From Nitrospiraceae bacterium (GTDB taxonomy: Bacteria; Nitrospirota; Nitrospiria; Nitrospirales; Nitrospiraceae): a DNA stretch of 57,497 nt. A program made the position numbers and the translations under genes. A model generated the notes under the pieces. The model did not search any database and was not told the origin of the DNA. It saw nothing but the letters and a program-made list of their open reading frames with translations. Location of the stretch: contig JABFSG010000060.1 of the NCBI GenBank assembly GCA_013140715.1, positions 1-57,497 of the forward strand, read 5' to 3'. Shown here piece by piece: positions 41,717 to 54,475 of this stretch (position 1 is the first letter of the stretch; the number at the start of each line of letters is the position of its first letter).

Positions 41717-42067
41717 ATGGTATCTGCTCCCAAAATCATCGGTCTCATGTCTTGTGGGTTTCTGCTGTGTCTTGGTCTGTCTAATACGGCGCAGGCAGAG
41801 AACGCGGCTCCGGCTGTAGAGGGGGAGAAAGCCAGCACGCCTCATGCGAGGCAGCCTGGTGATCCGAGGGTAGGCGGGCAAGGTGGTCAGCCGGCTGCGG
41901 CTCTAAAGGGGGAAGCTGACAAGCCTCATGCGAGGCAGAAGGGTGATCCGAGGGTAGGCGGGCAAGGTGGGCAGCCGGATAAGGGACAGGCTCTAAAGGG
42001 AGAAGCTGGCACACCTCATGCGAGGCAGAAGGGTGGTCCAAGGGTAGGTGGGCAAGGGGGGCAGTAA
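41717..42067 (+). CDS. Small secreted repeat protein between urtE and ureA
   Basis: A 116-residue protein not recognised as any known family. A signal peptide (LMSCGFLLCLGLSNTAQA) precedes three imperfect repeats of 28-30 residues with the core PHARQKGDPRVGGQGGQP and the linker ALKGEA. It is Gly-, Arg- and Gln-rich, with one His per repeat and no Cys in the mature part, and is probably disordered and periplasmic. AAGGAGG lies before the ATG, so it looks expressed. The conserved repeat core argues for function. A structural or metal- or polyanion-binding role is only a guess. Confidence 0.75.
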   Translation: MVSAPKIIGLMSCGFLLCLGLSNTAQAENAAPAVEGEKASTPHARQPGDPRVGGQGGQPAAALKGEADKPHARQKGDPRVGGQGGQPDKGQALKGEAGTPHARQKGGPRVGGQGGQ

Positions 42068-42935: not shown

Positions 42936-43238
42936 ATGCATCTGACACCACGGGAACAAGAAAAACTGCTGATCTATGTCGCGGCGAATTTGGCCAAGGA
43001 GCGGAAGGCGCGCGGGTTGAAGCTGAATCACCCTGAAGCGGTCGCGTTTATCACGGCGGCCATTCTGGAAGGCATTCGTGACGGTCGTTCCGTCTCGAAC
43101 CTCATGAGTTTCGGCGCGACGTTGCTGAAGAAAAAAGATGTTATGTCCGGTGTGGCGGAGATGATTCCAGAACTGCAAGTCGAGGGCACATTCCCGGATG
43201 GAACTAAACTTGTGACGGTTCATGAGCCGATTCGATAG
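42936..43238 (+). CDS. ureA: Urease subunit gamma
   Basis: A 100-residue gamma subunit starting [20 protein letters not shown], with [20 protein letters not shown]. It forms the (alpha-beta-gamma)3 urease with UreB and UreC, which hydrolyses urea to ammonia and carbamate. Length and sequence are normal. ureB begins eight bases after the stop. Confidence 0.96.
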
Positions 43239-43246
43239 GTGAATCG

Positions 43247-43708
43247 ATGAAGAAGAAAACCAAAGCCAAGCAGAAAGTGACGAAGCGAAGGGGCGTGAGT
43301 CGGGATGCCAAGAAGGCTTCGATTCAGTCCACTGCTGTGATTCCTGGTGAGGTCATCCTTGGTGAAGGCGACATCGTTGCATTCAAGGGCCGTCAGACGG
43401 TTGAGATGATTGTCGCCAATACCGGGGATCGGCCAATCCAGGTTGGGTCGCATTGTCATTTCTTCGAGGCGAATCGCGCGCTGCGGTTCGATCGGGAGAA
43501 GGCCTATGGATTTCGGTTGCAAGTTCCTGCTGGAACTGCGGTGCGGTTTGAGCCGGGCGAAGACAAGCGGGTGACGCTGGTCTCGATAGGCGGCAATCGG
43601 GTGGCCTATGGGATCAATGGATTGGTGAATGGTCGTCTGGATGATCCGACGGTAAAGACCAAGGCGCTCGTTGCAGCTCAAGCACAGGGGTTCATCGTTA
43701 AACGTTAA
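43247..43708 (+). CDS. ureB: Urease subunit beta with basic N-terminal extension
   Basis: A 153-residue beta subunit. The core (about residues 31-135) has [30 protein letters not shown] and the [15 protein letters not shown] strand. About 28 Lys/Arg-rich residues precede it and about 15 follow, whereas free-standing UreB is near 100-110 residues. The start is constrained by ureA, and no later ATG precedes the core, so the extension is likely translated. Confidence 0.95.
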
Positions 43709-43757
43709 CCGTTATACGTATACGCGATTAACGATTCACGAGTAACGATTAACGGAG
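43703..43757. repeat. GTTAACG-type intergenic repeat, ureB-ureC
   Basis: AACCGTTATACG, TACGCG, ATTAACGATTCACG and GTAACGATTAACGG follow each other, and CGTTA and TAACG segments can pair. It is related to the repeats at 12731-12796 and 13627-13715. The ureC ribosome binding site (ACGGAG) is formed at its edge. Confidence 0.45.
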
Positions 43758-43763
43758 AACACT

Positions 43764-45491
43764 ATGAAAATCCCGCGTCGCCAATACAACGATCTCTACG
43801 GTCCAACGGCAGGCGATCGCATTCGTCTGGCTGACACGGATCTCCTCATTGAAATTACCCGCGATCTGACGGTGCCTGGCGAAGAGGCCAAGTTCGGAGG
43901 CGGCAAGGTCATCCGCGACGGCATGGGCCAGTCTCCGTCAGCCACCCGCGCGAAGGGCGCGCTCGACCTTGTGATCACGAATGCGATCATCATCGATTGG
44001 TGGGGGATCGTGAAGGCCGATATCGGCATCCGCGATGGCCGCATCGCCGGCATCGGCAAGGCAGGCAATCCCGATTTGATGGAAGGTGTCACAAAGGGGA
44101 TGGAGGTCGGCGCTTGTACCGAGGTGCTTTCGGCGGAAGGCAAGATCGTGACGGCGGGAGGCATCGATACGCACATCCATTTCATCTGTCCGCAGATTAT
44201 TACTGAAGCGATTGCGAACGGATTGACCACGTTGATCGGCGGTGGGACTGGCCCAGCCACCGGCACGAATGCTACAACCTGCACGCCAGGCGCATGGAAT
44301 ATCCATCGCATGCTGGAAGCAGCGGAGGGATTTCCGATCAATCTCGGTTTTCTTGGGAAGGGCAATTCGTCGCTGCCGGATGGACTCCGCGAGCAAGTCG
44401 AGGCCGGCGCGATCGGGCTCAAGTTGCACGAAGACTGGGGTACGACTCCGGCGGCGATTTCGACTTGCCTCGATGTCGCGGAAGAATACGATGTCCAAGT
44501 CGCCATCCATACCGACACATTGAACGAAGCTGGCTTTGTCGAAGATACGATCAAAGCTTTCAAGGGACGGACGATCCACTCCTTTCATACTGAAGGCGCA
44601 GGCGGTGGACATGCTCCCGACATCATCAAAGTCTGCGGTGAGGCAAACGTGCTTCCCTCGTCCACGAATCCGACGATGCCCTTCACGGTCAATACGATGG
44701 ATGAGCATTTGGACATGCTCATGGTATGTCACCATTTGAACCCTCGTGTGCCTGAAGACATTGCCTTTGCCGAGTCTCGCATCCGTCGGGAAACCATTGC
44801 GGCGGAGGATATCCTGCACGACATGGGAGCGATCAGCATCATGTCGTCGGACTCGCAGGCGATGGGGCGGGTCGGTGAAGTCATCATTCGCACCTGGCAG
44901 ACGGCGCATAAGATGAAAGTGCAGCGAGGGCACCTGTCTCAGACGGCGGTTGAAAAGCCGTCCGGCGTGAATGACAACTTTCGTGCTCAGCGCTACATTT
45001 CAAAGTACACGATCAATCCGGCGATCGCGCATGGCATCGGGCATGAAGTCGGGTCGGTCGAGGTCGGAAAGCTGGCGGATCTCGTGTTATGGAAACCGGC
45101 CTTCTTCGGTGTGAAACCGGAGATTGTCCTCAAAGGTGGCTTTCCTATGTCCGCCGCCATGGGAGATCCCAATGCGTCGATCCCGACACCGCAGCCGGTT
45201 TTCACCAGGCCCATGTTCGGAAGCTTTGGCCGCGCTCCCTTTTCCACCAGCCTCACCTTTCTCTCCCAAGCTGCCCTAGACCACGAGGTGCATAAGTCAC
45301 TCGGCCTCCAGAAGCGCGTTGCGGCGGTAAAGCAATGCCGCAGCATCGGCAAACGCAATATGAAGCTGAACGATGCGTTGCCACATATGGAAGTTGATCC
45401 GGAGACCTATGTTGTGAAGGCCGACGGGCAGATTTTGACATGCGATCCGATGGAGATCTTACCAATGGCCCAACGGTATTTTTTGTTCTAA
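43764..45491 (+). CDS. ureC: Urease subunit alpha (catalytic)
   Basis: A 575-residue nickel amidohydrolase with all the active-site elements: H137 and H139 in THIHFICPQ, the carbamylated lysine K220 in [23 protein letters not shown], the mobile-flap [16 protein letters not shown] and D363 in [12 protein letters not shown]. It starts [19 protein letters not shown] and is full length. Nothing indicates inactivation. Confidence 0.98.
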
Positions 45492-45492
45492 C

Positions 45493-45657
45493 GGCTGCTG
45501 AAAACGCCGTCCAGCATCGTTCTCACCTTGAACGCATCCTCAACGTACCCCACTCGGGGAAAGAGCTGTCTCGGCAGCTCGGGGTGGGCGGGTGAGGAAT
45601 GGTACGCCTCCGGTGCGTCCGTCGGCTCGGCCTTGCTGGACAACGTTTTGAGCAGCC
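45493..45657. repeat. Urt/ure junction palindrome, copy 2 (ureC-ureF)
   Basis: About 165 bp. GGCTGCTGAAAACG at the left pairs with CGTTTTGAGCAGCC at the right, and GTCCAGC with GCTGGAC. The inside matches copies 1 and 3 (CGTTCTC, TCCTCAACGTACCCC, GTACGCCTCCGGT, CGGCCTTGCTGGA), but it carries about 45 extra bases with their own hairpin (GAGCTGTCTCGGCAGCTC). Confidence 0.75.
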
Positions 45658-45676
45658 TAGCGGTTAGGGATAATCT

Positions 45677-46390
45677 ATGGAGAAGGGCTCACCGTGTAAT
45701 GCGATGAATACTCTATCGCTTCTGAACGGTCTGCGATTCATCGATAGCTTCTTTCCATCAGGTGGCTATGCCTTCTCCTCGGGACTTGAGGCGGCGGTGC
45801 AGGGGGGTGCAGTTCGGAATGCGGAGGAGCTGTCGCGTTACGTGGTCGAGTCGCTCACGACTGGAATGGGAGAACGCGAGGCAGTAGCGGTCGGATTGGC
45901 GCATGACGCTGTCGTTTCCGGTAGCTTGGAAATTGCGTTCAAGGCGGATCTTGACCTGGATGCGATGAAGCTGGGCCGTGAATCACGGATTGCCAGCCGT
46001 CAAATGGGCCGCCAGGTGATTCGCATAGCAGCGGAACAGCATCACGGACATCCATCACTCGAAGACTATTTAGCCGGTGTTGAAGCCGGGCGGAGTCCCG
46101 GGCATATGGCCGTCAGTCTGGGGCTCACGCTGGCGGCGGCCGGTTGGTGCAAAGAAGACAGCATTGCTTCGTTCCTCTATCAAACGGCGACTGGTTTTGT
46201 GGCGGCAGCCATGAAGTTGTTGCCGATAGGGCAGCGTGAAGGACAGCGACTCTTGGAAGGTTGGATCGAAGTCATTGAGCGGGTGAGCAAGCAGGCAACG
46301 CAGCAGAGAGAACTGCGCTCCTGGTCGCCGATTCAGGATATCTATGGAATGAAGCATAGCCGGTTGGAGTCGCGGCTTTTTCGGTCTTGA
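45677..46390 (+). CDS. ureF: Urease accessory protein UreF
   Basis: A 237-residue UreF with LLNGLRFIDSFFPSGGYAFS and GLEAAVQGGAVRNAEEL, the usual signature. UreF acts in the UreDFG complex that loads nickel into apo-urease and is thought to gate the GTPase UreG. ATG 45677 has an AGGGA site. ATG 45704 is the alternative. Its partners ureG and ureD lie 6 kb further on, beyond an inserted module. Confidence 0.92.
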   Translation: MEKGSPCNAMNTLSLLNGLRFIDSFFPSGGYAFSSGLEAAVQGGAVRNAEELSRYVVESLTTGMGEREAVAVGLAHDAVVSGSLEIAFKADLDLDAMKLGRESRIASRQMGRQVIRIAAEQHHGHPSLEDYLAGVEAGRSPGHMAVSLGLTLAAAGWCKEDSIASFLYQTATGFVAAAMKLLPIGQREGQRLLEGWIEVIERVSKQATQQRELRSWSPIQDIYGMKHSRLESRLFRS

Positions 46391-46640
46391 GCGCGCATGG
46401 CCTCCAGCAAGTCGTCAGGGCGATGCGATAGGTTCCCTTGCTGTTGGGTTCTGAGCCGTCGACTTTTTTCTACAACCCCATCCTCTTCCGTTCGCAGCCC
46501 TGCAATTACAGCGGCGATTCCTGTCTCGTCAGGGTCGAGTGAATTTTCCGTAGATAGGCGCGGCATGCGTCGTACTTCGATCAGCGTATCTGGGCGTTAT
46601 GGTAGTGCTGACCACAACGGGTCGGCGCATTGCGGGTAGC

Positions 46641-48872
46641 TCAAGGTCCGTGCGTTCCGGTGCGGTTTCGGAGTAGAGGAGGGATGCTGGGAAACGGGAG
46701 GAGTTTGCCCTGCCATGTCGAAGCAGCGGGGGCTGGTACGGAGTCCAAATCCGTTTTGTGGGGGAGGGTGATAATGAAAACTGTTCCTTGGCCGACGGTG
46801 CTCTGTGCTTCGATTGTGCCGGTATGTTCTTGAATGATTTGATGGACGATCGAGAGGCCGAGCCCGGTTCCCGCATGCTCCGCGCTGTCGTGTTTGGTTG
46901 TAAAGAAGGGGTCGAAAATGTGCGGCAGATCTTCAGGCGTAATCCCGCTGCCGGTATCGGAGATCTCGATCTGTATCCATTGGGTGCCGTCGAGGCGGGT
47001 GATGTCGCGTGTCGCGACGCTCAATCGCCCTCCGGTCTTCATCGCGTCGATCGCGTTTAGGACGAGATTCATCAACACTTGTTTAATTTGCTGACGATCG
47101 AGCACTATTGGAGTGAGCTGTTCGGCCAGATGCTTCTCAATCGACACTCCCAGGCTGTTCGCCTTGACTTCAATGAAGTGCAGGCAGGAGCTAACGATCT
47201 CGTTCAGCGATTCCAAGGAGAATTTGGGCTTCATATAGCGCGCGTAGTCCAGTATTTCTTCGATGAGGCGCTCGATGCGCGCAAGATCGTCGGCGACCAC
47301 CGGGCTGAAGGAGTCCATGAACTCAGCGTCGTCCCGTCGCAACGGCGCCAGTTGGATGAACGTTTTGATCGATGTTAGAGGGTTCCGTATCTCATGGGCG
47401 AATCCCCCTGCGATGGTTTCCAGTGAGCGGAGGCGATCCGTGCGCCGAATGAGAAGCTGCGAGCGTTTCCAATCCTCATAGAGCATGGCATTGTCGAGCG
47501 CAATCGCAGCGTTGTTTGCCAGAGAGCCGAGAAGTTTGATCTCGTCCAACGAATAGATTGCCAGAAGGGGCTTGTGCCCGAGATTGACAAAGCCGATGAG
47601 CCGAGCCTTGTTGACAAGGGGCAGACAGACTTCAGAGTCCATCTTCGTCAATACTTCCACCAGGGCGGCAGTCAGTGCTTCATCTTTTCCCAGAAGTCCA
47701 TGTTGGAGTTCTTCCTTGATGATCGGCTGGTTGTGCTCCACGAGAAAACCGGAGAAAGACTCATGGCTTGTGAGCTGAATGGCATTGGCCTGGGCTTTGT
47801 CTATCCCGTACGATGCTTTGAGCCCGTAGCGACCGTCTTCCTTTTCTAGGAGAAAGAGCGAGATCTTCTCGATGCCCATGACGTGTTGCAGCGCACGGAC
47901 GATCTCATTTTGCAAATTGGCGAGATCGAGATTCGTGACCATGGTCTGGCTGAAGCGCGCCAAGGTGTTGTACGCGTCATGCCTGCCTGGGAAAAGCGCT
48001 TTATTGAGAGCGGATTGAAGGCGCGGTTGGAAGGTGACATACAGCACCGTGAACGTCGCGGTCGCGGCAACAAGAGTTCCGGTCAAGGCTGCTGGAGAGA
48101 GGTCGCTCAGCCCATTTGCAAGCAGGACGAGCGCAAGCGTGAATGGGACGAGCGGGAGATAGGTGGCGCTCAGGGAGACGAATAGGGCGGCATCGAGAAG
48201 CTGATAGCGCAGAATGGCGATCGTGACGATGATGGTCAGCAGAAAAATTGGAACATATCCGAAGGGGTAGAGTGCATAGCCGAGGGCCGGCACGAAATCG
48301 ACTGAGCCCAGATAGGCGATCACAAACGCGATCAGAACGAACCTGATCTGCTGACGCTTAATGGGCGTTGTGACAGTGCCGTAGGCGCGAACATAGTCAG
48401 TGAATGCGACGGCCATATAGGAGAAGAACAGGGCGAAAAACGGCACACTGGCGGGACCCCACTGCGGAAAATATCCCCACCAATATTGGTGGACGCCTGC
48501 GACGAAATCTTGCCGAACGAGGACGGCTCCGGCCAGAAGTGTGGCGAGTCCATAGCCAAGCAGAATGGAACGGGGGCGATGAAGCTGGAGGAATTCCGAG
48601 GAGAATGCATAGAACGCGACAGAGATATACATGACGCCGACATTGTCGAGCCTAAACCAGTTCAAGGCTCTGTCCGCTGTGGTCGCGCAGAGGCCGATGC
48701 TGGTCGCGGTGAGCCACAACGCGATACTGGCGCAGAGAATGAGGAAATGGCGGTGCGAAGCGGATTGCCGATTCGACCGATAGACCAGGACTCCCAGTCC
48801 TAGCGTGACGAGCCCCATGAGCAGCATGGGGATGGCGTGAACATTGAGCGTGTAGGCCGGAGCAACAGACAT
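46641..48872 (-). CDS. 7TM-GAF sensor histidine kinase
   Basis: A 743-residue kinase. The N-terminal seven-helix membrane module (about residues 5-225, starting TLNVHAIPMLLMGLVTLGLG) resembles the HisKA_7TM family. A GAF domain (about 280-440), a HisKA domain with H493 in GGFAHEIRNPLTSIKTFIQL and a HATPase with NLVLNAIDAM, DTGSGI and GTGLGLSIVHQI follow. No response regulator is encoded next to it. The start at 48872 is five bases from the stop of the PilZ-AAR gene, so they form one operon. An upstream open frame to 49079 overlaps that gene and is not used. Confidence 0.88.
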   Translation of the reverse strand: MSVAPAYTLNVHAIPMLLMGLVTLGLGVLVYRSNRQSASHRHFLILCASIALWLTATSIGLCATTADRALNWFRLDNVGVMYISVAFYAFSSEFLQLHRPRSILLGYGLATLLAGAVLVRQDFVAGVHQYWWGYFPQWGPASVPFFALFFSYMAVAFTDYVRAYGTVTTPIKRQQIRFVLIAFVIAYLGSVDFVPALGYALYPFGYVPIFLLTIIVTIAILRYQLLDAALFVSLSATYLPLVPFTLALVLLANGLSDLSPAALTGTLVAATATFTVLYVTFQPRLQSALNKALFPGRHDAYNTLARFSQTMVTNLDLANLQNEIVRALQHVMGIEKISLFLLEKEDGRYGLKASYGIDKAQANAIQLTSHESFSGFLVEHNQPIIKEELQHGLLGKDEALTAALVEVLTKMDSEVCLPLVNKARLIGFVNLGHKPLLAIYSLDEIKLLGSLANNAAIALDNAMLYEDWKRSQLLIRRTDRLRSLETIAGGFAHEIRNPLTSIKTFIQLAPLRRDDAEFMDSFSPVVADDLARIERLIEEILDYARYMKPKFSLESLNEIVSSCLHFIEVKANSLGVSIEKHLAEQLTPIVLDRQQIKQVLMNLVLNAIDAMKTGGRLSVATRDITRLDGTQWIQIEISDTGSGITPEDLPHIFDPFFTTKHDSAEHAGTGLGLSIVHQIIQEHTGTIEAQSTVGQGTVFIITLPHKTDLDSVPAPAASTWQGKLLPFPSIPPLLRNRTGTHGP

Positions 48873-48877
48873 AGAGA

Positions 48878-50623
48878 TTATTCTATCGTTCGTGCTTGGG
48901 CGATTCGGAGCAGATGCTCGTCGGTAACGTAGCCTCCAGAATTTCGAAAGCGCGCAAGGCGGAAACCAAGCGCGCGACCGGCGGCAATGATGTGCGCGGC
49001 ATGCGATGGATCGGCTTTGCCGAGGGAGTAATGTCCGGTCCATCCTATGGCGGTCAAGATCATGGTTTCGGAGAGACAACCGAGGGCTTCCCCTGGGGCC
49101 AGGTCCAGGTCAAAGTGCACGTCGACATCGGGCGTTTGGACCACGGCGGATTCGATGACCACGACATCGGGCCGCTGGCGCGGGATCTCCTCCGATACAT
49201 TTTTTGGCTGGGCTGCATCGATCACAATCGCGCCGGGCTTCAAGTGATCAGCAGTTAGCAGGATGTGCGGGTTGTTGGTTGCGGCGATAACGATATCTGC
49301 CTCTCGTACTCGACTGAGACTCGTGGCGCCCTCCACGACGGCCGGCTGGTTTGCCAATTGCGCAACCAGGTTTTGCAGCGCATCTTTCTTGATGTCGATG
49401 ATAAGGAGGCTGGCTACTAATCGGGCGAGCATTTTTGCGCAGGCGGAACCTACCGACCCGGCTCCTCCGACGATCGCAACAGTGGCGTGCGGAAGGCTGA
49501 GATTCGTCAGGGCGGCGGCTTGAAGAATATTTTGGACGGCGATAGCGGCGGAATGAGGATTCCCCGTGGTCAATCCAAGGTGAACCTTCCCCTCAAGATC
49601 CCGTCCGTCTCGCGTGACGATCGATGTGAAGGCGCCTAAGCCTGCAATCTTCGCTCCCATTTTTTCAGCCAGCCGAATGGTCTGCAGGACACGCTGTCGG
49701 GCGAGCCGAGGGTTGCGAATCATCTGCTCTGTCGTCAGCGGAGAAATCAGCATCGCTCCGGTCGTAGGAGATCCGTTCGCCAGGGTCAGGCCGGTGATGT
49801 AGGAGGCGACAAAGGGCCATTGGTGCCGAAACCACCGCTCCACGATATGCGCCGGCAAGAAGTGCGCGAACGGGAATTTCCGTGGAACGTCGTCTAGTAT
49901 GCGAGGGTGTCCGATGAATGCAAAGGTAATGGGTGTGATAAAGAGGCGGGCAAGGGAGCCAGGCAGGAATCGGATGCTCAAATCACGAAGGACTTGCGTG
50001 AGAAGCCCGAAGCCTTGCCAGGCCATACTCCAGGAAAAGTGTCGGGGAGGCATCTTGGAAGCCTGGGGCGCCGGCACAGAGTCTGTATTCTGTATCGCCT
50101 GTTGAACTGGCGTCGAATCGATGTGTTGGGCCGAGCTGCGAGACCGATTGTCGGGGCCGACCGACAATCGGTAGGGAAGGTGATAGGGATTATCGGTGAT
50201 GAACAGGGAAAGAATGGACCGGGGGTTACTGGTAACGAGTCTCGCGCGCTCTGCCGCGCGCTCGTCGCTGTCCGGGGCTCCGAGGCTGTGCAGATAGATT
50301 TCCAGCTCTTCAAATGTAGACTCGAGGATCTGCCGCTCGATATCTCCCAGAGGCAGCAGGTGGATATCGATACGGAACTGTGTCGTCGGATTTCCGCTCT
50401 CTTCGGTCACGGCGGCCACCCGGCCTGTCAATGGCATATAGGCGACATTGCGGCTGAAGTAGAAGAGTACGGAGACCGATGTGTCTACTGGAGATGCGCA
50501 ATCGGTTAAGAGGGAAAGGGAGTCGAGGCAGAGATCCTGGGTCACTCCTCGCGCCAATGTGCCCTGAAAATCTACGACAATTGGAAGACTCACTCCGAGT
50601 CGGTTTGAAATTGCGCTCTCCAT
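48878..50623 (-). CDS. PilZ-like domain fused to acyl-ACP-reductase-like oxidoreductase
   Basis: A 581-residue two-part protein. Residues about 5-130 look like a degenerate PilZ domain (RGVTQDLCLDSLSLLTD, GRVAAVTEE). A Pro/Gln-rich linker follows. Residues about 215-580 resemble cyanobacterial long-chain acyl-ACP reductase: AEKMGAKIAGLGAFTSIVT, LGLTTGNPHSAAIAVQNI, the Rossmann motif VAIVGGAGSVGSACAKML near residue 380 and ADIVIAATNNP. The likely chemistry is NAD(P)H-dependent reduction of an acyl thioester, possibly under control of c-di-GMP or a lipid. I chose the ATG at 50623 with AGAGGTG upstream. A TTG at 50689 is less likely. Confidence 0.75.
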   Translation of the reverse strand: MESAISNRLGVSLPIVVDFQGTLARGVTQDLCLDSLSLLTDCASPVDTSVSVLFYFSRNVAYMPLTGRVAAVTEESGNPTTQFRIDIHLLPLGDIERQILESTFEELEIYLHSLGAPDSDERAAERARLVTSNPRSILSLFITDNPYHLPYRLSVGPDNRSRSSAQHIDSTPVQQAIQNTDSVPAPQASKMPPRHFSWSMAWQGFGLLTQVLRDLSIRFLPGSLARLFITPITFAFIGHPRILDDVPRKFPFAHFLPAHIVERWFRHQWPFVASYITGLTLANGSPTTGAMLISPLTTEQMIRNPRLARQRVLQTIRLAEKMGAKIAGLGAFTSIVTRDGRDLEGKVHLGLTTGNPHSAAIAVQNILQAAALTNLSLPHATVAIVGGAGSVGSACAKMLARLVASLLIIDIKKDALQNLVAQLANQPAVVEGATSLSRVREADIVIAATNNPHILLTADHLKPGAIVIDAAQPKNVSEEIPRQRPDVVVIESAVVQTPDVDVHFDLDLAPGEALGCLSETMILTAIGWTGHYSLGKADPSHAAHIIAAGRALGFRLARFRNSGGYVTDEHLLRIAQARTIE

Positions 50624-50755
50624 CGTCACCTCTTTATCCGTCCGAACAGATATCTTCACCCGTAAAACCGTTGAGAGTCGACGTCCCAAGTCGATTGAGT
50701 TAGGAGCGCGCCTTGTCGCCTAGACATAGACTGCGGCTCAGTATAGCCACACCCG

Positions 50756-50800
50756 AGGTGTAATACACCTTACTATTGTATGTGGTGAATGGTTTGTCAA
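50756..50800 (-). promoter_or_regulatory. Promoter and operator of the PilZ-AAR/kinase operon
   Basis: On the minus strand TTGACA (50800-50795) and AATAGT (17-base spacer) form a sigma-70 promoter. Directly downstream the perfect palindrome AGGTGTA-n-TACACCT (50756-50770) covers the expected transcription start, a typical repressor position. The transcript would have a leader of about 140 bases before the ATG at 50623. Confidence 0.6.
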
Positions 50801-50862
50801 CCAAAGCGTTTCTAAAGGCTGGGATCGCAAGAAGCCTTATGGGCTGTAATCGAATACAGGTA

Positions 50863-50893
50863 TTGTCAAAACTGAATGGATGATATGTATATT
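50863..50893 (+). promoter_or_regulatory. Candidate promoter of the FadL-type gene
   Basis: TTGTCA (50863-50868) is followed by an AT-rich TATGTATATT run giving possible -10 hexamers at 15 to 19 bases. An inverted repeat, ACTGAAT (50871) / ATTCAGT (50904), brackets the -10 region and could be an operator. The region 50624-51032 holds no gene. Confidence 0.35.
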
Positions 50894-51032
50894 AACGTAT
50901 GAAATTCAGTCGATTGCTGCTATCTCTTATGAAATTGTTAGGGATGTATTGTGCGGACAGACATAATTGCACGAATGTTGCAAAGAGATCGATTGGCGCT
51001 ATGTCAGGAGATTGTGGATGGAGGCATATCTC

Positions 51033-52490
51033 ATGCGGACGAACTCCATATGTAATGCGATAGGGATCGCTCGGCGCGCGAGCGGAGGGCGAGGGTATCA
51101 ATCGAAATCATGGGTGAGGTTCGCGGGTGCCTGTGGCCTGCTCATGATACTGGTGTTTCCCGCCGCTGTTTTTGCAGGTGCGTTCCAGGTTTTTGATCAT
51201 AGTGCCTCCGGGACAGCCCAGGGTGGCGCCTTCGCAGCCCAGGCCGATGATCCTTCAGCCATATATTTCAATCCGGCTGGAATGACTCAACTGAGCGGCA
51301 TTCAGACCAGTGTCGGAACCCTGCTGCTCGGGGGAGGCACAAATTTTACCAGTCCGTCCGGGGCGACCACGAGAGGTGATTTTGGCGGCAGTGTAGCCTC
51401 CCCGCCTCCGAGCAATTTTTATCTCACCGCGAACCTCAAAAGTCTCGGGGTGGCCGCATTGGAGAATCTTTCTGTGGGAATCGGCGTCGTTTCGCCGTTC
51501 GGAGTCTTGTACCGCTATTCCAACGACAGTCCGTTCGCTACAGCTGTGACATCGCAGTCATTGCCGTTGATGGATATCAAACCAACCCTGGCGTATAAGG
51601 TGAATGACCAATTGTCTGTCGGGCTTGGCGCAGATATCTATACCTTCGCAAGCTTTTGGGGCACAGGACAGGCTGTGACAAAATTCAATTCATCGGGAGG
51701 ACCGGGCTTGCCACCGCCCGGAACCTTGATGGAAGTGAATGGGGGGGATACGGCTGCCGGGTTCAACGTGAGTTTGCTGTACACACCGCTGCGGAACGCA
51801 GACGGGCGGCCATTGGTCAACGTCGGTCTGGTGTACCGCAGCCAGGCGACTCTCCACTTAGACGGTCAGTTTCTCGCCGGTGGAACGCGCGTTTCGGATG
51901 CCTCTACCACTCTGGTGCTTCCACAGGTCTTTACAGGGGGCATTGCAATTTGGCCGATCCGCGATGCGGCACATGAATGGAAGCTGGAACTCGATGTCGA
52001 CCATACGGGGTGGAGCTCGATGCGCAATCTCGACGTGCACCTCTCGACCGGTGGCACAATTCCATTCCCACAGAACTGGCGGAATGCCTATACGTTCAAG
52101 ATCGGAACTGAATATAAATGGCTCGATCCGGCTGTGCTGCCGGATTGGGACATTGCGTTGCGTGGAGGTTATTGGCATTCCCAAACGCCTGTTCCCGATC
52201 GATCCTTTACGCCTACCGTTCCAGACTCAGATCAGCAAGCGATCTCAGGAGGACTGGGCTTGCTATGCAAGGGGGGAGGCCGGTTTCTCGGACTGATCCC
52301 CTGCGGTGCGGCAGAAGGTTCATCGTTTTGGCCTAAAGGGATAGGAATAGACTTGGCCTATCAGCTGATTCTGTATGAGCCGCGGACGGTCAGCGGTAGT
52401 GCGCACCCGGTCGCTATTCCCGGCGTCATAGATGGAACATACCAAACCACCTGGCATGTTGGTTCACTGAACCTTCGGGTCAATTTCTGA
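51033..52490 (+). CDS. FadL/TodX-family outer-membrane transporter
   Basis: A 485-residue protein with a signal peptide ending FAGAFQV and the family motif near the mature N terminus (SASGTAQGGAFAAQADDPSA, then YFNPAGMTQL). It closes with a C-terminal strand ending LRVNF, typical of outer-membrane barrels. FadL relatives import long-chain fatty acids, hydrocarbons or aromatics. I chose ATG 51033, which has GGAGG eight bases upstream. ATG 51018 is possible. It is divergent from the acyl-ACP-reductase-like gene, which suggests a shared lipid theme. Confidence 0.88.
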   Translation: MRTNSICNAIGIARRASGGRGYQSKSWVRFAGACGLLMILVFPAAVFAGAFQVFDHSASGTAQGGAFAAQADDPSAIYFNPAGMTQLSGIQTSVGTLLLGGGTNFTSPSGATTRGDFGGSVASPPPSNFYLTANLKSLGVAALENLSVGIGVVSPFGVLYRYSNDSPFATAVTSQSLPLMDIKPTLAYKVNDQLSVGLGADIYTFASFWGTGQAVTKFNSSGGPGLPPPGTLMEVNGGDTAAGFNVSLLYTPLRNADGRPLVNVGLVYRSQATLHLDGQFLAGGTRVSDASTTLVLPQVFTGGIAIWPIRDAAHEWKLELDVDHTGWSSMRNLDVHLSTGGTIPFPQNWRNAYTFKIGTEYKWLDPAVLPDWDIALRGGYWHSQTPVPDRSFTPTVPDSDQQAISGGLGLLCKGGGRFLGLIPCGAAEGSSFWPKGIGIDLAYQLILYEPRTVSGSAHPVAIPGVIDGTYQTTWHVGSLNLRVNF

Positions 52491-52671
52491 GTTCCGGCGG
52501 TAGCGAGGGTTCGACAGACCGTGGAATCCGATGCCCGTATCGCAGGCGGGCTGCTCAGCTTCCGTATGAACCCTGTCACGTGGTGAGCTTAGGCCTGTTA
52601 TCTGTTCACGTCTCACGCACCGCTCTGTGGGGTCACCCTCACAACGACCCATCTCTTTCTTCTGTTGTTTC

Positions 52672-52680
52672 TGCTATAAG
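52672..52680 (+). promoter_or_regulatory. Extended -10 upstream of ureG
   Basis: TGCTATAAG matches TG-n-TATAAG, 34 bases before the ureG start. No -35 of quality is seen. A separate promoter makes sense because ureG is cut off from the rest of the urease operon. Confidence 0.4.
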
Positions 52681-52714
52681 CTATATGTTCTGAGCCATCA
52701 GCGCTGGGACTCCT

Positions 52715-53374
52715 ATGCATCAAGCCGATGAACATATGGTTGGCAGCGGCCGTGTCACGGAGGCGCGGGCGCGTCATATTCCTGTAATCGGGGTCGGCGG
52801 GCCGGTGGGGTCTGGCAAGACCGCCCTTGTCGAAGCGCTCTGTCTCCGCCTCCGAGATCGCGTGAGTTTGGCGGTCGTGACCAATGACATCTTTACCAAG
52901 GAAGATGCCGAGTTTCTCACTCGCCGTGGCGCACTGCCGCAAGACCGTATTCTGGGTGTCGAAACCGGTGGCTGCCCCCATACGGCGATCCGTGAAGATG
53001 CGTCGCACAATCAGGAAGCCTTGGACGATTTGCTCAAGCGCCATCCCGAAGTCGAACTGATGTTTGTCGAGAGCGGCGGCGACAATCTGGCTGCGACATT
53101 CAGCCCTGAACTCGCGGACAAGGTTATCTACGTGATCGATGTGGCAGCCGGTGACAAGATCCCGCGCAAAGGCGGCCCTGGTATTACTCGCTCCGATCTA
53201 CTCGTCATCAACAAGATCGATCTCGCGCCCCATGTCGGCGCGGATCTCGACGTTATGGATCGAGATAGCAGGCGGATGCGCGGGGACTTGCCGTTCATCT
53301 TTACGAATCTCAAAACAGGGCAAGGCCTCGACCAGGTGGTGGCGTGGGTTGAGCAGCTCATAGCAGGATGCTGA
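52715..53374 (+). CDS. ureG: Urease accessory GTPase UreG
   Basis: A 219-residue SIMIBI-class GTPase with P-loop [31 protein letters not shown], the metal-binding CPH motif in [17 protein letters not shown], and [15 protein letters not shown]. It uses GTP hydrolysis to deliver nickel to urease in the UreDFG complex. The end of the gene, including the stop codon, is formed by the left arm of a palindromic repeat. Confidence 0.97.
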
Positions 53375-53487
53375 AAAAGGTTCCCAACGTCGTTCTCGGC
53401 TGGTAAAGTCCTCAGCGTACCGCAGAGGGTACGCCTCCGGTTTTGCCTGCGTCTGCGGCCTAGTTGGATAACCTTTTTGAGCATCCT
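53365..53487. repeat. Urt/ure junction palindrome, copy 3 (ureG-ureD)
   Basis: About 123 bp. AGGATGCTGAAAAAGGTT (53365-53382) pairs with AACCTTTTTGAGCATCCT (53470-53487) with one mismatch. The inside has CGTCGTTCTCGGCT, TCCTCAGCGTACCGC, AGAGGGTACGCCTCCGGT and CTGCGGCCTAGTTGGA. The left arm contains the last bases of ureG. Confidence 0.8.
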
Positions 53488-53506
53488 GGGCGCTTCTCTC
53501 CTGCCT

Positions 53507-53558
53507 GGTCCAAAGTAACCAACAAACGAAACAAACCAAATGAACCAAACAAACGAGT
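53507..53558. repeat. 9-nt-period repeat, copy 4 (one arm only), inside the ureD start
   Basis: ACAAACGAA, ACAAACCAA, ATGAACCAA and ACAAACGAG continue the 9-base series in the complementary sense. No opposite arm is visible nearby. The ATG of ureD at 53540 and its first six codons belong to this repeat. Confidence 0.65.
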
Positions 53559-54475
53559 CCATCCTCGGTGCAGTCGGTCGCCGTGGGGCGCTGAGTTATG
53601 AGTTCGAGCGGCAAGGCTCGCGCACGGTCCTCGCCCGGTCATCCTGCTCAAGTCCCTGGCATCACTTTCCTCCTTCGTATCTCGACGACAGCGGTTGCGC
53701 CTGCACCTGGCTTGTGAATCCATCCGGAGGCTTAGTCGGTGGGGACTATGTCTCGATAGAGGCGCAGCTCCATGCCGGGACGCATGTGCTGATGACGAGT
53801 CCTTCCGCCAATCGTGTCTATCGAAGTCTGTCCGAGCCGGCGGTGCAAGAAGTTCGACTGTCGGTCGGTCCTGACGCTCGGCTGGAATGGATGCCCGAGG
53901 TTACGATTCCTTTTGCCGGTGCTCGCTTTCGCCAAAGAATCCATGTGGATCTTGCGCCTGGCGCGACGGTGGTACTGTGGGATGGTCTTGCCTCCGGCCG
54001 GGTAGCCATGCAGGAACGCTGGGCATTCGCATTGGTCGAAAACGAGATCTGCATAAGGGGACTGGCTCCGCCGTCCGCGGCGGTGCCTGTCCCCTTGCTT
54101 TCCGGACAGGGACAGGCGCCAAAAGAAAAGGCGCCGGTCTCCTGGTCGGTTGTCGAACGATATTGCCTGGTTCCCGGTTCATTGTCGGAATCGGTAGGCC
54201 TCGTCGGGAGCTGGGACTATGTTGCATCGTGCTTCGTCATCGGCGATGCCGTCGAGGCCGGCGTCTGGAAACATCTTGAAGAGGTATTGGCTACTATAAT
54301 GGAGCAACATTCCGGCCCGGTGCTGGGTGCAGTTTCAACCCCGGCAGCTCCAGGTCTGGTCGTGAAACTCGTCGCGCGTTCGGCTCCAGACCTGACTGCG
54401 ACCTTGGAAGCGATGTGGGCGGCAGTCCGAAAAAGTCTGTGGAATCTTCCGATGCCGAATCTGAGGAGGTACTAG
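53540..54475 (+). CDS. ureD: Urease accessory protein UreD (UreH)
   Basis: A 311-residue UreD with YEFERQGSRTVLARSS, the NPSGGLVGGDYVSIEAQLHA stretch and LEWMPEVTIPFAGARFRQ. UreD binds apo-urease and recruits UreF and UreG. The only usable start is ATG 53540, whose first residues (MNQTNE) are encoded by a 9-nt-period repeat. No Shine-Dalgarno sequence is visible. Several sites downstream in the gene are normal. ureE is absent from this window. Confidence 0.93.
   Translation: MNQTNESILGAVGRRGALSYEFERQGSRTVLARSSCSSPWHHFPPSYLDDSGCACTWLVNPSGGLVGGDYVSIEAQLHAGTHVLMTSPSANRVYRSLSEPAVQEVRLSVGPDARLEWMPEVTIPFAGARFRQRIHVDLAPGATVVLWDGLASGRVAMQERWAFALVENEICIRGLAPPSAAVPVPLLSGQGQAPKEKAPVSWSVVERYCLVPGSLSESVGLVGSWDYVASCFVIGDAVEAGVWKHLEEVLATIMEQHSGPVLGAVSTPAAPGLVVKLVARSAPDLTATLEAMWAAVRKSLWNLPMPNLRRY

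Follow-up and report, generated by a model that had tools for sequence, protein, structure and literature searches.

Two described signalling systems come closest to the locus presented here. The RpfF/RpfC/RpfG (DSF) system shares with it a synthase for a fatty-acid-type signal that is encoded beside a multi-transmembrane kinase, DSF itself has been found to bind RpfC (PMC5391125), and an HD-GYP output recurs in part of the related modules described below. The PhcB/PhcS system (methyl 3-hydroxymyristate) pairs a methyltransferase synthase with a sensor kinase, and sister modules of our locus that carry a LuxD-like hydrolase-methyltransferase appear alike in logic (PMC8578825, PMC11960443). Unlike the Rpf system, however, the pair studied here contains no RpfF-type enzyme (Pfam matched no crotonase/enoyl-CoA hydratase fold in its chain), its kinase is of the 7TM-GAF HisKA_7TM type, a PilZ domain sits on the enzyme, and no response regulator gene lies beside the two genes. 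In addition, the partner is a reductase and not a methyltransferase, and the likeness to PhcB/PhcS is one of logic, not of sequence comparison. Regarding the enzyme itself, the relevant families are the acyl-ACP reductases (AAR, TIGR04058) and the PigE/TamH thioester reductase-transaminases, with thioester reduction reported for PigE (PMC8341465, PMC9594044). The domain name HisKA_7TM is seldom mentioned in the open-access literature searched, and the quorum sensing of Nitrospirales treated in PMC12342949 is of the acyl-homoserine-lactone kind only, with PilZ unmentioned.

The locus lies in a window of 57,497 nucleotides, which is the whole stretch of DNA analysed (contig C24 of a 3.58 Mb host genome that is 99.7% complete and whose named relatives belong to Nitrospira). 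A preliminary description of this DNA had proposed, without stating the strand, an open reading frame at 48878-50623 that joins a worn PilZ fold to an AAR-like enzyme; the frame exists and runs on the minus strand from an ATG at 50623 to a TAA at 48878-48880 (Table 1). The suggestion that this is not a described architecture agrees with our search of one open-access library, in which no paper contained both 'acyl-ACP reductase' and 'PilZ'. The kinase, PilZ-AAR and FadL genes form a block (46641-52490) inside a urease cluster (42936-54475), where they split the ure genes into ureA, ureB, ureC and ureF on one side and ureG and ureD on the other (names assigned from translations). A small putative secreted protein with repeat units like (G/D)TPHARQKGDPRVGGQGGQ is encoded at 41717-42067 of the window.

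Table 1. Features of the PilZ-AAR locus in window coordinates
Feature	Position	Strand	Basis or remark
PilZ-AAR fusion gene, 581 aa	48878..50623	minus	kept in about 16 Nitrospiraceae genomes
PilZ-like domain, aa 1-108, c-di-GMP motifs lost	50300..50623	minus	
Linker motif NPRSILSLFITDNP, aa 133-146, conserved	50186..50227	minus	orthologue alignments
Hydrophobic/basic segment LLTQVLRDLSIRFLPGSLARLFITP, aa 207-233, N-terminal to reductase	49925..50005	minus	orthologue alignment
AAR/PigE-type acyl-thioester reductase domain, aa 234-581	48881..49924	minus	NCBIfam and PDB matches
C516 codon	49076..49078	minus	aligned with catalytic Cys294 of S. elongatus AAR
Sensor histidine kinase, 743 aa, starts 5 nt past the PilZ-AAR stop	46641..48872	minus	
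Kinase 7TM domain (HisKA_7TM), part tracking the partner enzyme	48138..48872	minus	
Kinase GAF domain	47493..47930	minus	
Kinase HisKA and HATPase_c	46755..47411	minus	
FadL/TodX-family outer-membrane porin, divergent, ORF from first start codon	50967..52490	plus	

The C-terminal half of the fusion is AAR-like, as the preliminary description had claimed. Its best PDB match is the S. elongatus AAR 6jzu (6.5e-20, residues about 234-538), followed by further AAR structures (6jzq, 6jzz) and by PigE (4ppm, 1.4e-18). Among the NCBIfam models, PigE (NF053554) scores 142.6 bits, while the 85.8 bits (3.4e-24) obtained with TIGR04058, set against an equivalog cut-off of 449.7, mark PilZ-AAR as a relative that lies outside that equivalog. 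Glutamyl-tRNA reductase and shikimate dehydrogenase, which had been named as competing assignments, fit less well, with 24.9 and 21.6 bits, respectively; either identity is ruled out, and the Pfam Shikimate_DH match reflects a generic nucleotide-binding fold. An equivalent of the catalytic cysteine was found in C516, at the place where chain 6jzz has a serine, and this residue is invariant in the full-length PilZ-AAR orthologues and in the PilZ-less relatives. The nucleotide-binding motif is retained as well, and the motifs GLGAFTSIV, TTGNPHSAAI and GGAGSVGSA, already quoted from the window copy, are invariant or nearly so in the full-length orthologues. By its sequence, the reductase domain should turn fatty acyl groups into aldehydes.

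Although the reductase half shares the homologous core, the catalytic cysteine and the nucleotide-binding motif with AAR, it is fused to PilZ and paired with a kinase, and a genome search found no aldehyde-deformylating oxygenase in the host; the cyanobacterial alkane pathway was rejected for this reason. PigE is the closest NCBIfam model, but no aminotransferase domain was found by a Pfam scan of the whole PilZ-AAR chain, which has PilZ instead and stands in a signalling context. A 996-aa PigE/TamH-like protein, whose N part resembles an aminotransferase and whose C part resembles AAR, is encoded in two other Nitrospiraceae (L050:8178-11168, also L038 and L039), and the large same-strand ORFs that flank its gene resemble a biosynthetic cluster.

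The N-terminal part had been described as a worn PilZ fold, and this holds when it is compared as a family. The window copy alone reaches 18.1 bits (E 0.0034) with Pfam PilZ (PF07238), which is below the curated 22.5; a match is obtained in 12 of 13 orthologues (best 3.8e-5), and profile-profile comparison (hhalign) aligns the N terminus over 102 columns with other enzyme-fused PilZ domains at a probability of 98.8 (E 7e-17); against unrelated PilZ domains from the host genome the probability is 79 (E 1.5e-5). A profile of the N terminus retrieved no meaningful chain from the PDB. While most other enzyme-fused PilZ domains retain both RxxxR (invariant in the eight aligned) and [DN]xSxxG, the two c-di-GMP motifs are lost in the aligned PilZ-AAR sequences, and the simple c-di-GMP control of the enzyme that had been envisaged does not survive this comparison. 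In the AAR branch, the PilZ domain probably serves protein interaction or has a structural role. Behind other enzyme-fused PilZ domains, the alignments place 'SLLTLLVSKD' at a position similar to that of NPRSILSLFITDNP. The segment at residues 207-233, which is resembled by a stretch in L018, is a possible membrane-surface helix. The host genome contains 39 PilZ matches in its 3.58 Mb, several of them clustered (C94, C36, C102 and C2).

A survey for the same fusion, as had been advised, recovered it in about 16 of 175 Nitrospiraceae genomes (one copy broken and one partial) and in 2 of the 32 genomes of the host's genus, hence its distribution is patchy. The complete chromosome of N. moscoviensis carries PilZ-AAR (L015) and exactly one kinase of the 7TM-GAF family. 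PilZ-less relatives of the reductase occur in Bacillota, Parcubacteria and Chloroflexaceae; the 7TM-GAF kinase family is absent from six genomes of other phyla that carry such relatives, which indicates that the enzyme can exist alone. PilZ-AAR, on the other hand, was never seen without a 7TM-GAF kinase where the contig reaches.

Every intact orthologous locus on a contig that extends far enough has the kinase gene directly downstream of PilZ-AAR, at a distance of 5-10 nt or with an overlap. The 7TM domain of the window kinase scores 51.6 bits against a Pfam cut-off of 28.6 (PF16927), and this is the one HisKA_7TM kinase of the host genome; members of the family in Nitrospirota are mostly preceded by an enzyme gene, and their 7TM is sometimes doubled. 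The porin matches PF03349 with 154 bits. Since FadL is adjacent in about 8 of 14 orthologous loci and the kinase wherever the contig reaches, a FadL-centred lipid-uptake reading was rejected as a general explanation. Kinase and divergent porin both lie as the preliminary description had them, the kinase on the strand of PilZ-AAR and 5 nt away from it. What had been missed is that the kinase is more than a neighbour, being a member of a family found across the phylum that recurs in pairs with exchangeable enzymes.

Distant matches to the PilZ part were found in a PilZ-KASIII protein (L047), a PilZ-TenA-like protein (L048) and a PilZ-PilZ-PilZ-LuxD-like hydrolase-methyltransferase (L049). The first and the third are encoded directly before a kinase and the second with one short ORF between, and these three kinases score 635-687 bits against the window kinase, the next unrelated kinase reaching 68. 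Among 395 Nitrospirota genomes, metagenome-assembled ones included, 98 were matched by a 7TM-GAF profile. The partners of these kinases are many unrelated enzymes, most of which act on acyl thioesters or lipid-like substrates, and many carry a PilZ domain with intact c-di-GMP motifs. They comprise HMG-CoA reductase with (L117) and without PilZ (L201), PilZ-less AAR outside Nitrospiraceae (L141, L150), acyl-aldehyde dehydrogenase-type enzymes (L123, and L145 with ACP), PF07993 fatty-acyl reductases, in part with ACP and ketosynthase (L133, L134, L199, L205), an ACP with two ketosynthases (L149), a PilZ-methyltransferase (L144) and PilZ-less TenA proteins (L125, L126). In genome G171, enzyme and kinase are joined in one 1641-aa chain (L119, PilZ-PilZ-LuxD-MT-7TM-GAF-HK).

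We counted these pairings for the 69 family kinases that score at least 150 bits in the stretches of DNA retrieved. Because enzyme classes were named after the loci had been seen and the sample is weighted to high-scoring matches, this census describes rather than tests the association, in which an enzyme gene is found directly upstream of 47 of the 69 kinases, and of 55 when the second gene upstream or a short gap is also accepted. The remainder consists of two kinases at contig ends and 12 without such an enzyme, mainly a paralogous group in family f2, plus one in f31. Only 1 of 32 other kinases of the same stretches is enzyme-preceded, and this exception (L201) is itself a distant family member; similarly, none of the 28 other kinases of the host genome has such an enzyme gene within 1.5 kb. 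A REC-HD-GYP regulator is encoded downstream of the kinase in 13 of 69 modules and an NtrC-type activator in 5; a response regulator lies in the same cluster in 14, and the motif HHExxDGxG(Y/F)P is present in six of seven REC-HD-GYP regulators checked. The host genome has a second module (L154:11052-19402, C42), which opens with a 1394-aa REC-PAS-PilZ-PilZ-LuxD-methyltransferase and continues with a soluble kinase that lacks a 7TM (375 bits to the window kinase family), followed by NtrC-type and REC-HD-GYP regulators. In family f34 and its neighbours (L133, L134, L149, L198, L199, L202, L203, L205), the 7TM kinase ends ketosynthase/ACP/reductase clusters, and a second kinase and a REC-HD-GYP regulator come after it.

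The partner enzyme changes at least 19 times on the whole-kinase tree with the pairing kept, and the part of the kinase that follows these changes is the first 7TM. Only one distant kinase in Nitrospiraceae, L051, likewise has an AAR partner (the reductases being 75% identical), and its first 7TM shares 59% identity with the window 7TM, compared with 24-33% for the 7TMs of other pairs; in the GAF-kinase core, identity is 55-60% for every Nitrospiraceae pair compared. In the AAR pairs outside Nitrospiraceae (L141, L150), 7TM identity to the window is 27-28%. Partner labels change 11 times on the first-7TM tree (minimum 9) versus 14 times on the core tree. The LUXD, TENA and KS rows form one clade each on the former, as do 10 of 11 AAR rows, whereas the core tree needs 6 changes for LUXD, 3 for AAR, 3 for TENA and 2 for KS. 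In AU tests, whose groups were picked after the trees, themselves quick searches, had been seen, the core rejects the partner clades (AAR with L051, p 1e-4; TENA, 1e-135; LUXD, 1e-67), and the first 7TM rejects the sister pairs of the core (p 3e-49 and 1e-115).

Furthermore, identity breaks within the kinase chain. Between the L048 and L116 kinases, identity is 27-45% in residues 1-200 and 62-98% beyond, L048 is 53-78% identical to the TenA-paired L118 over residues 1-200, and the breakpoints in the L048 and L051 kinases lie at the end of the first 7TM. Where the 7TM is doubled (L047, L048, L049, L051, L116, L117), the second copy is 45-49% identical to that of L051 whatever the partner, while the first copy varies with the partner enzyme. 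The tree conflict and the identity break indicate that enzyme plus first 7TM behaves as a cassette before a resident kinase. As the two are contiguous DNA, one crossover moves both, and their joint inheritance supports, but does not prove, ligand matching.

We judge the chances to be about even that PilZ-AAR and the kinase are a synthase-receptor pair for a lipid-derived signal, analogous to Rpf and Phc. Computation shows the domains, a conserved cysteine, conserved adjacency, the swapping of enzymes and the fact that enzyme and first 7TM are inherited jointly; catalysis, product, ligand binding, phosphotransfer and any exit of the signal from the cell are inferred. The reductase domain would bind the acyl group of a fatty acyl-ACP or acyl-CoA thioester at C516, and NAD(P)H would reduce the bound group to a fatty aldehyde or a derived product. 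This hydrophobic product would enter the membrane and be read by the 7TM of the adjacent kinase; it may be exported, perhaps through FadL, or retained in the membrane. Recognition would alter kinase autophosphorylation, and the signal would reach a response regulator whose gene lies elsewhere in the genome. Where a sister module encodes its regulator alongside, this is mostly a c-di-GMP phosphodiesterase of the REC-HD-GYP type, accompanied in Nitrospiraceae by an NtrC-type activator. PilZ would be a regulatory graft, predicted to be a c-di-GMP binder in most sister modules, where it might form a loop with the HD-GYP output. The cysteine with the dinucleotide-binding motif, kinase adjacency, recurrent enzyme pairing, the L119 fusion, the tracking by the 7TM and the REC-HD-GYP regulators downstream in part of the modules all favour a synthase-receptor pair; the missing regulator beside the window pair, the roughly 12 of 69 enzyme-less kinases, the L154 kinase without a 7TM and the distance of the L141 and L150 7TMs from that of the window count against it. 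So do the TenA-like partners, which are not known to make a signal product.

The same observations allow other readings. A 7TM kinase might, like DesK, respond to the physical state or the lipid content of the membrane, with the enzyme as a lipid-modifying output or a co-regulated gene. Many partners act on acyl thioesters, the kinase has several transmembrane segments and FadL is near in part of the loci, but a general membrane sensor needs no 7TM that changes with the type of enzyme, and HMG-CoA reductase and TenA-like partners are no obvious membrane tailors, hence we regard this explanation as unlikely. That the enzyme is instead an intracellular metabolite sensor which touches the kinase via PilZ or the linker, catalysis being secondary, appears distinctly unlikely to us. 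PilZ domains often act in protein contacts, and the tight gene coupling, the complete enzyme-kinase fusion of L119 and the retention of a degenerate PilZ with an invariant linker motif would suit such a contact; however, the PilZ-less AAR (L141, L150) and TenA (L125, L126) pairs keep their kinase, the catalytic cysteine is invariant, and the part that tracks the enzyme, the first 7TM, is largely in the membrane.

Homology to AAR would also fit an enzyme of ordinary lipid metabolism that supplies aldehydes or alcohols to build wax or alkane-type lipids, beside a kinase that is an unrelated operon mate. Given that the host genome has no aldehyde-deformylating oxygenase, that the pairing with the kinase is conserved and is found again with other enzymes, and that PilZ-AAR always has its kinase where the contig reaches, this is very unlikely. 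Neutral contiguity bears most directly on the tree conflict: the synthase gene and the 5' part of the kinase gene adjoin and the breakpoints fall within the kinase gene, therefore co-transfer alone could explain part of the joint inheritance, through operon inertia rather than ligand matching. At least 19 partner changes with the pairing kept and the position of both the L048 and L051 breakpoints at the end of the first 7TM speak against it as the whole explanation, to which we assign a rather small probability.

Returning to the synthase-receptor reading, the coupled change of enzyme and first 7TM points to a hitherto undescribed family of lipid-based signalling systems. In its widest form, which we hold more tentatively and at somewhat less than even chances, Nitrospirota would possess phylum-wide, exchangeable and often PilZ-gated synthase-receptor cassettes, each with a private lipid signal read by its own 7TM, and each open to exchange on a shared kinase core; many modules would have their synthesis gated by c-di-GMP and an HD-GYP regulator that changes c-di-GMP as output. 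If true, nitrite oxidisers and their relatives have a second, lipid-based system for communication or self-sensing with many chemically different signals, AAR-type reductases gain a physiological role beyond the making of alkanes and antibiotics, several lipid enzymes come under PilZ control, and the natural domain swaps are ready-made pairs for locating the ligand-reading part of a 7TM kinase. The host genome also encodes a LuxI-type autoinducer synthase (L206, C61:38232-38687; 62 bits), so homoserine-lactone signalling may coexist.
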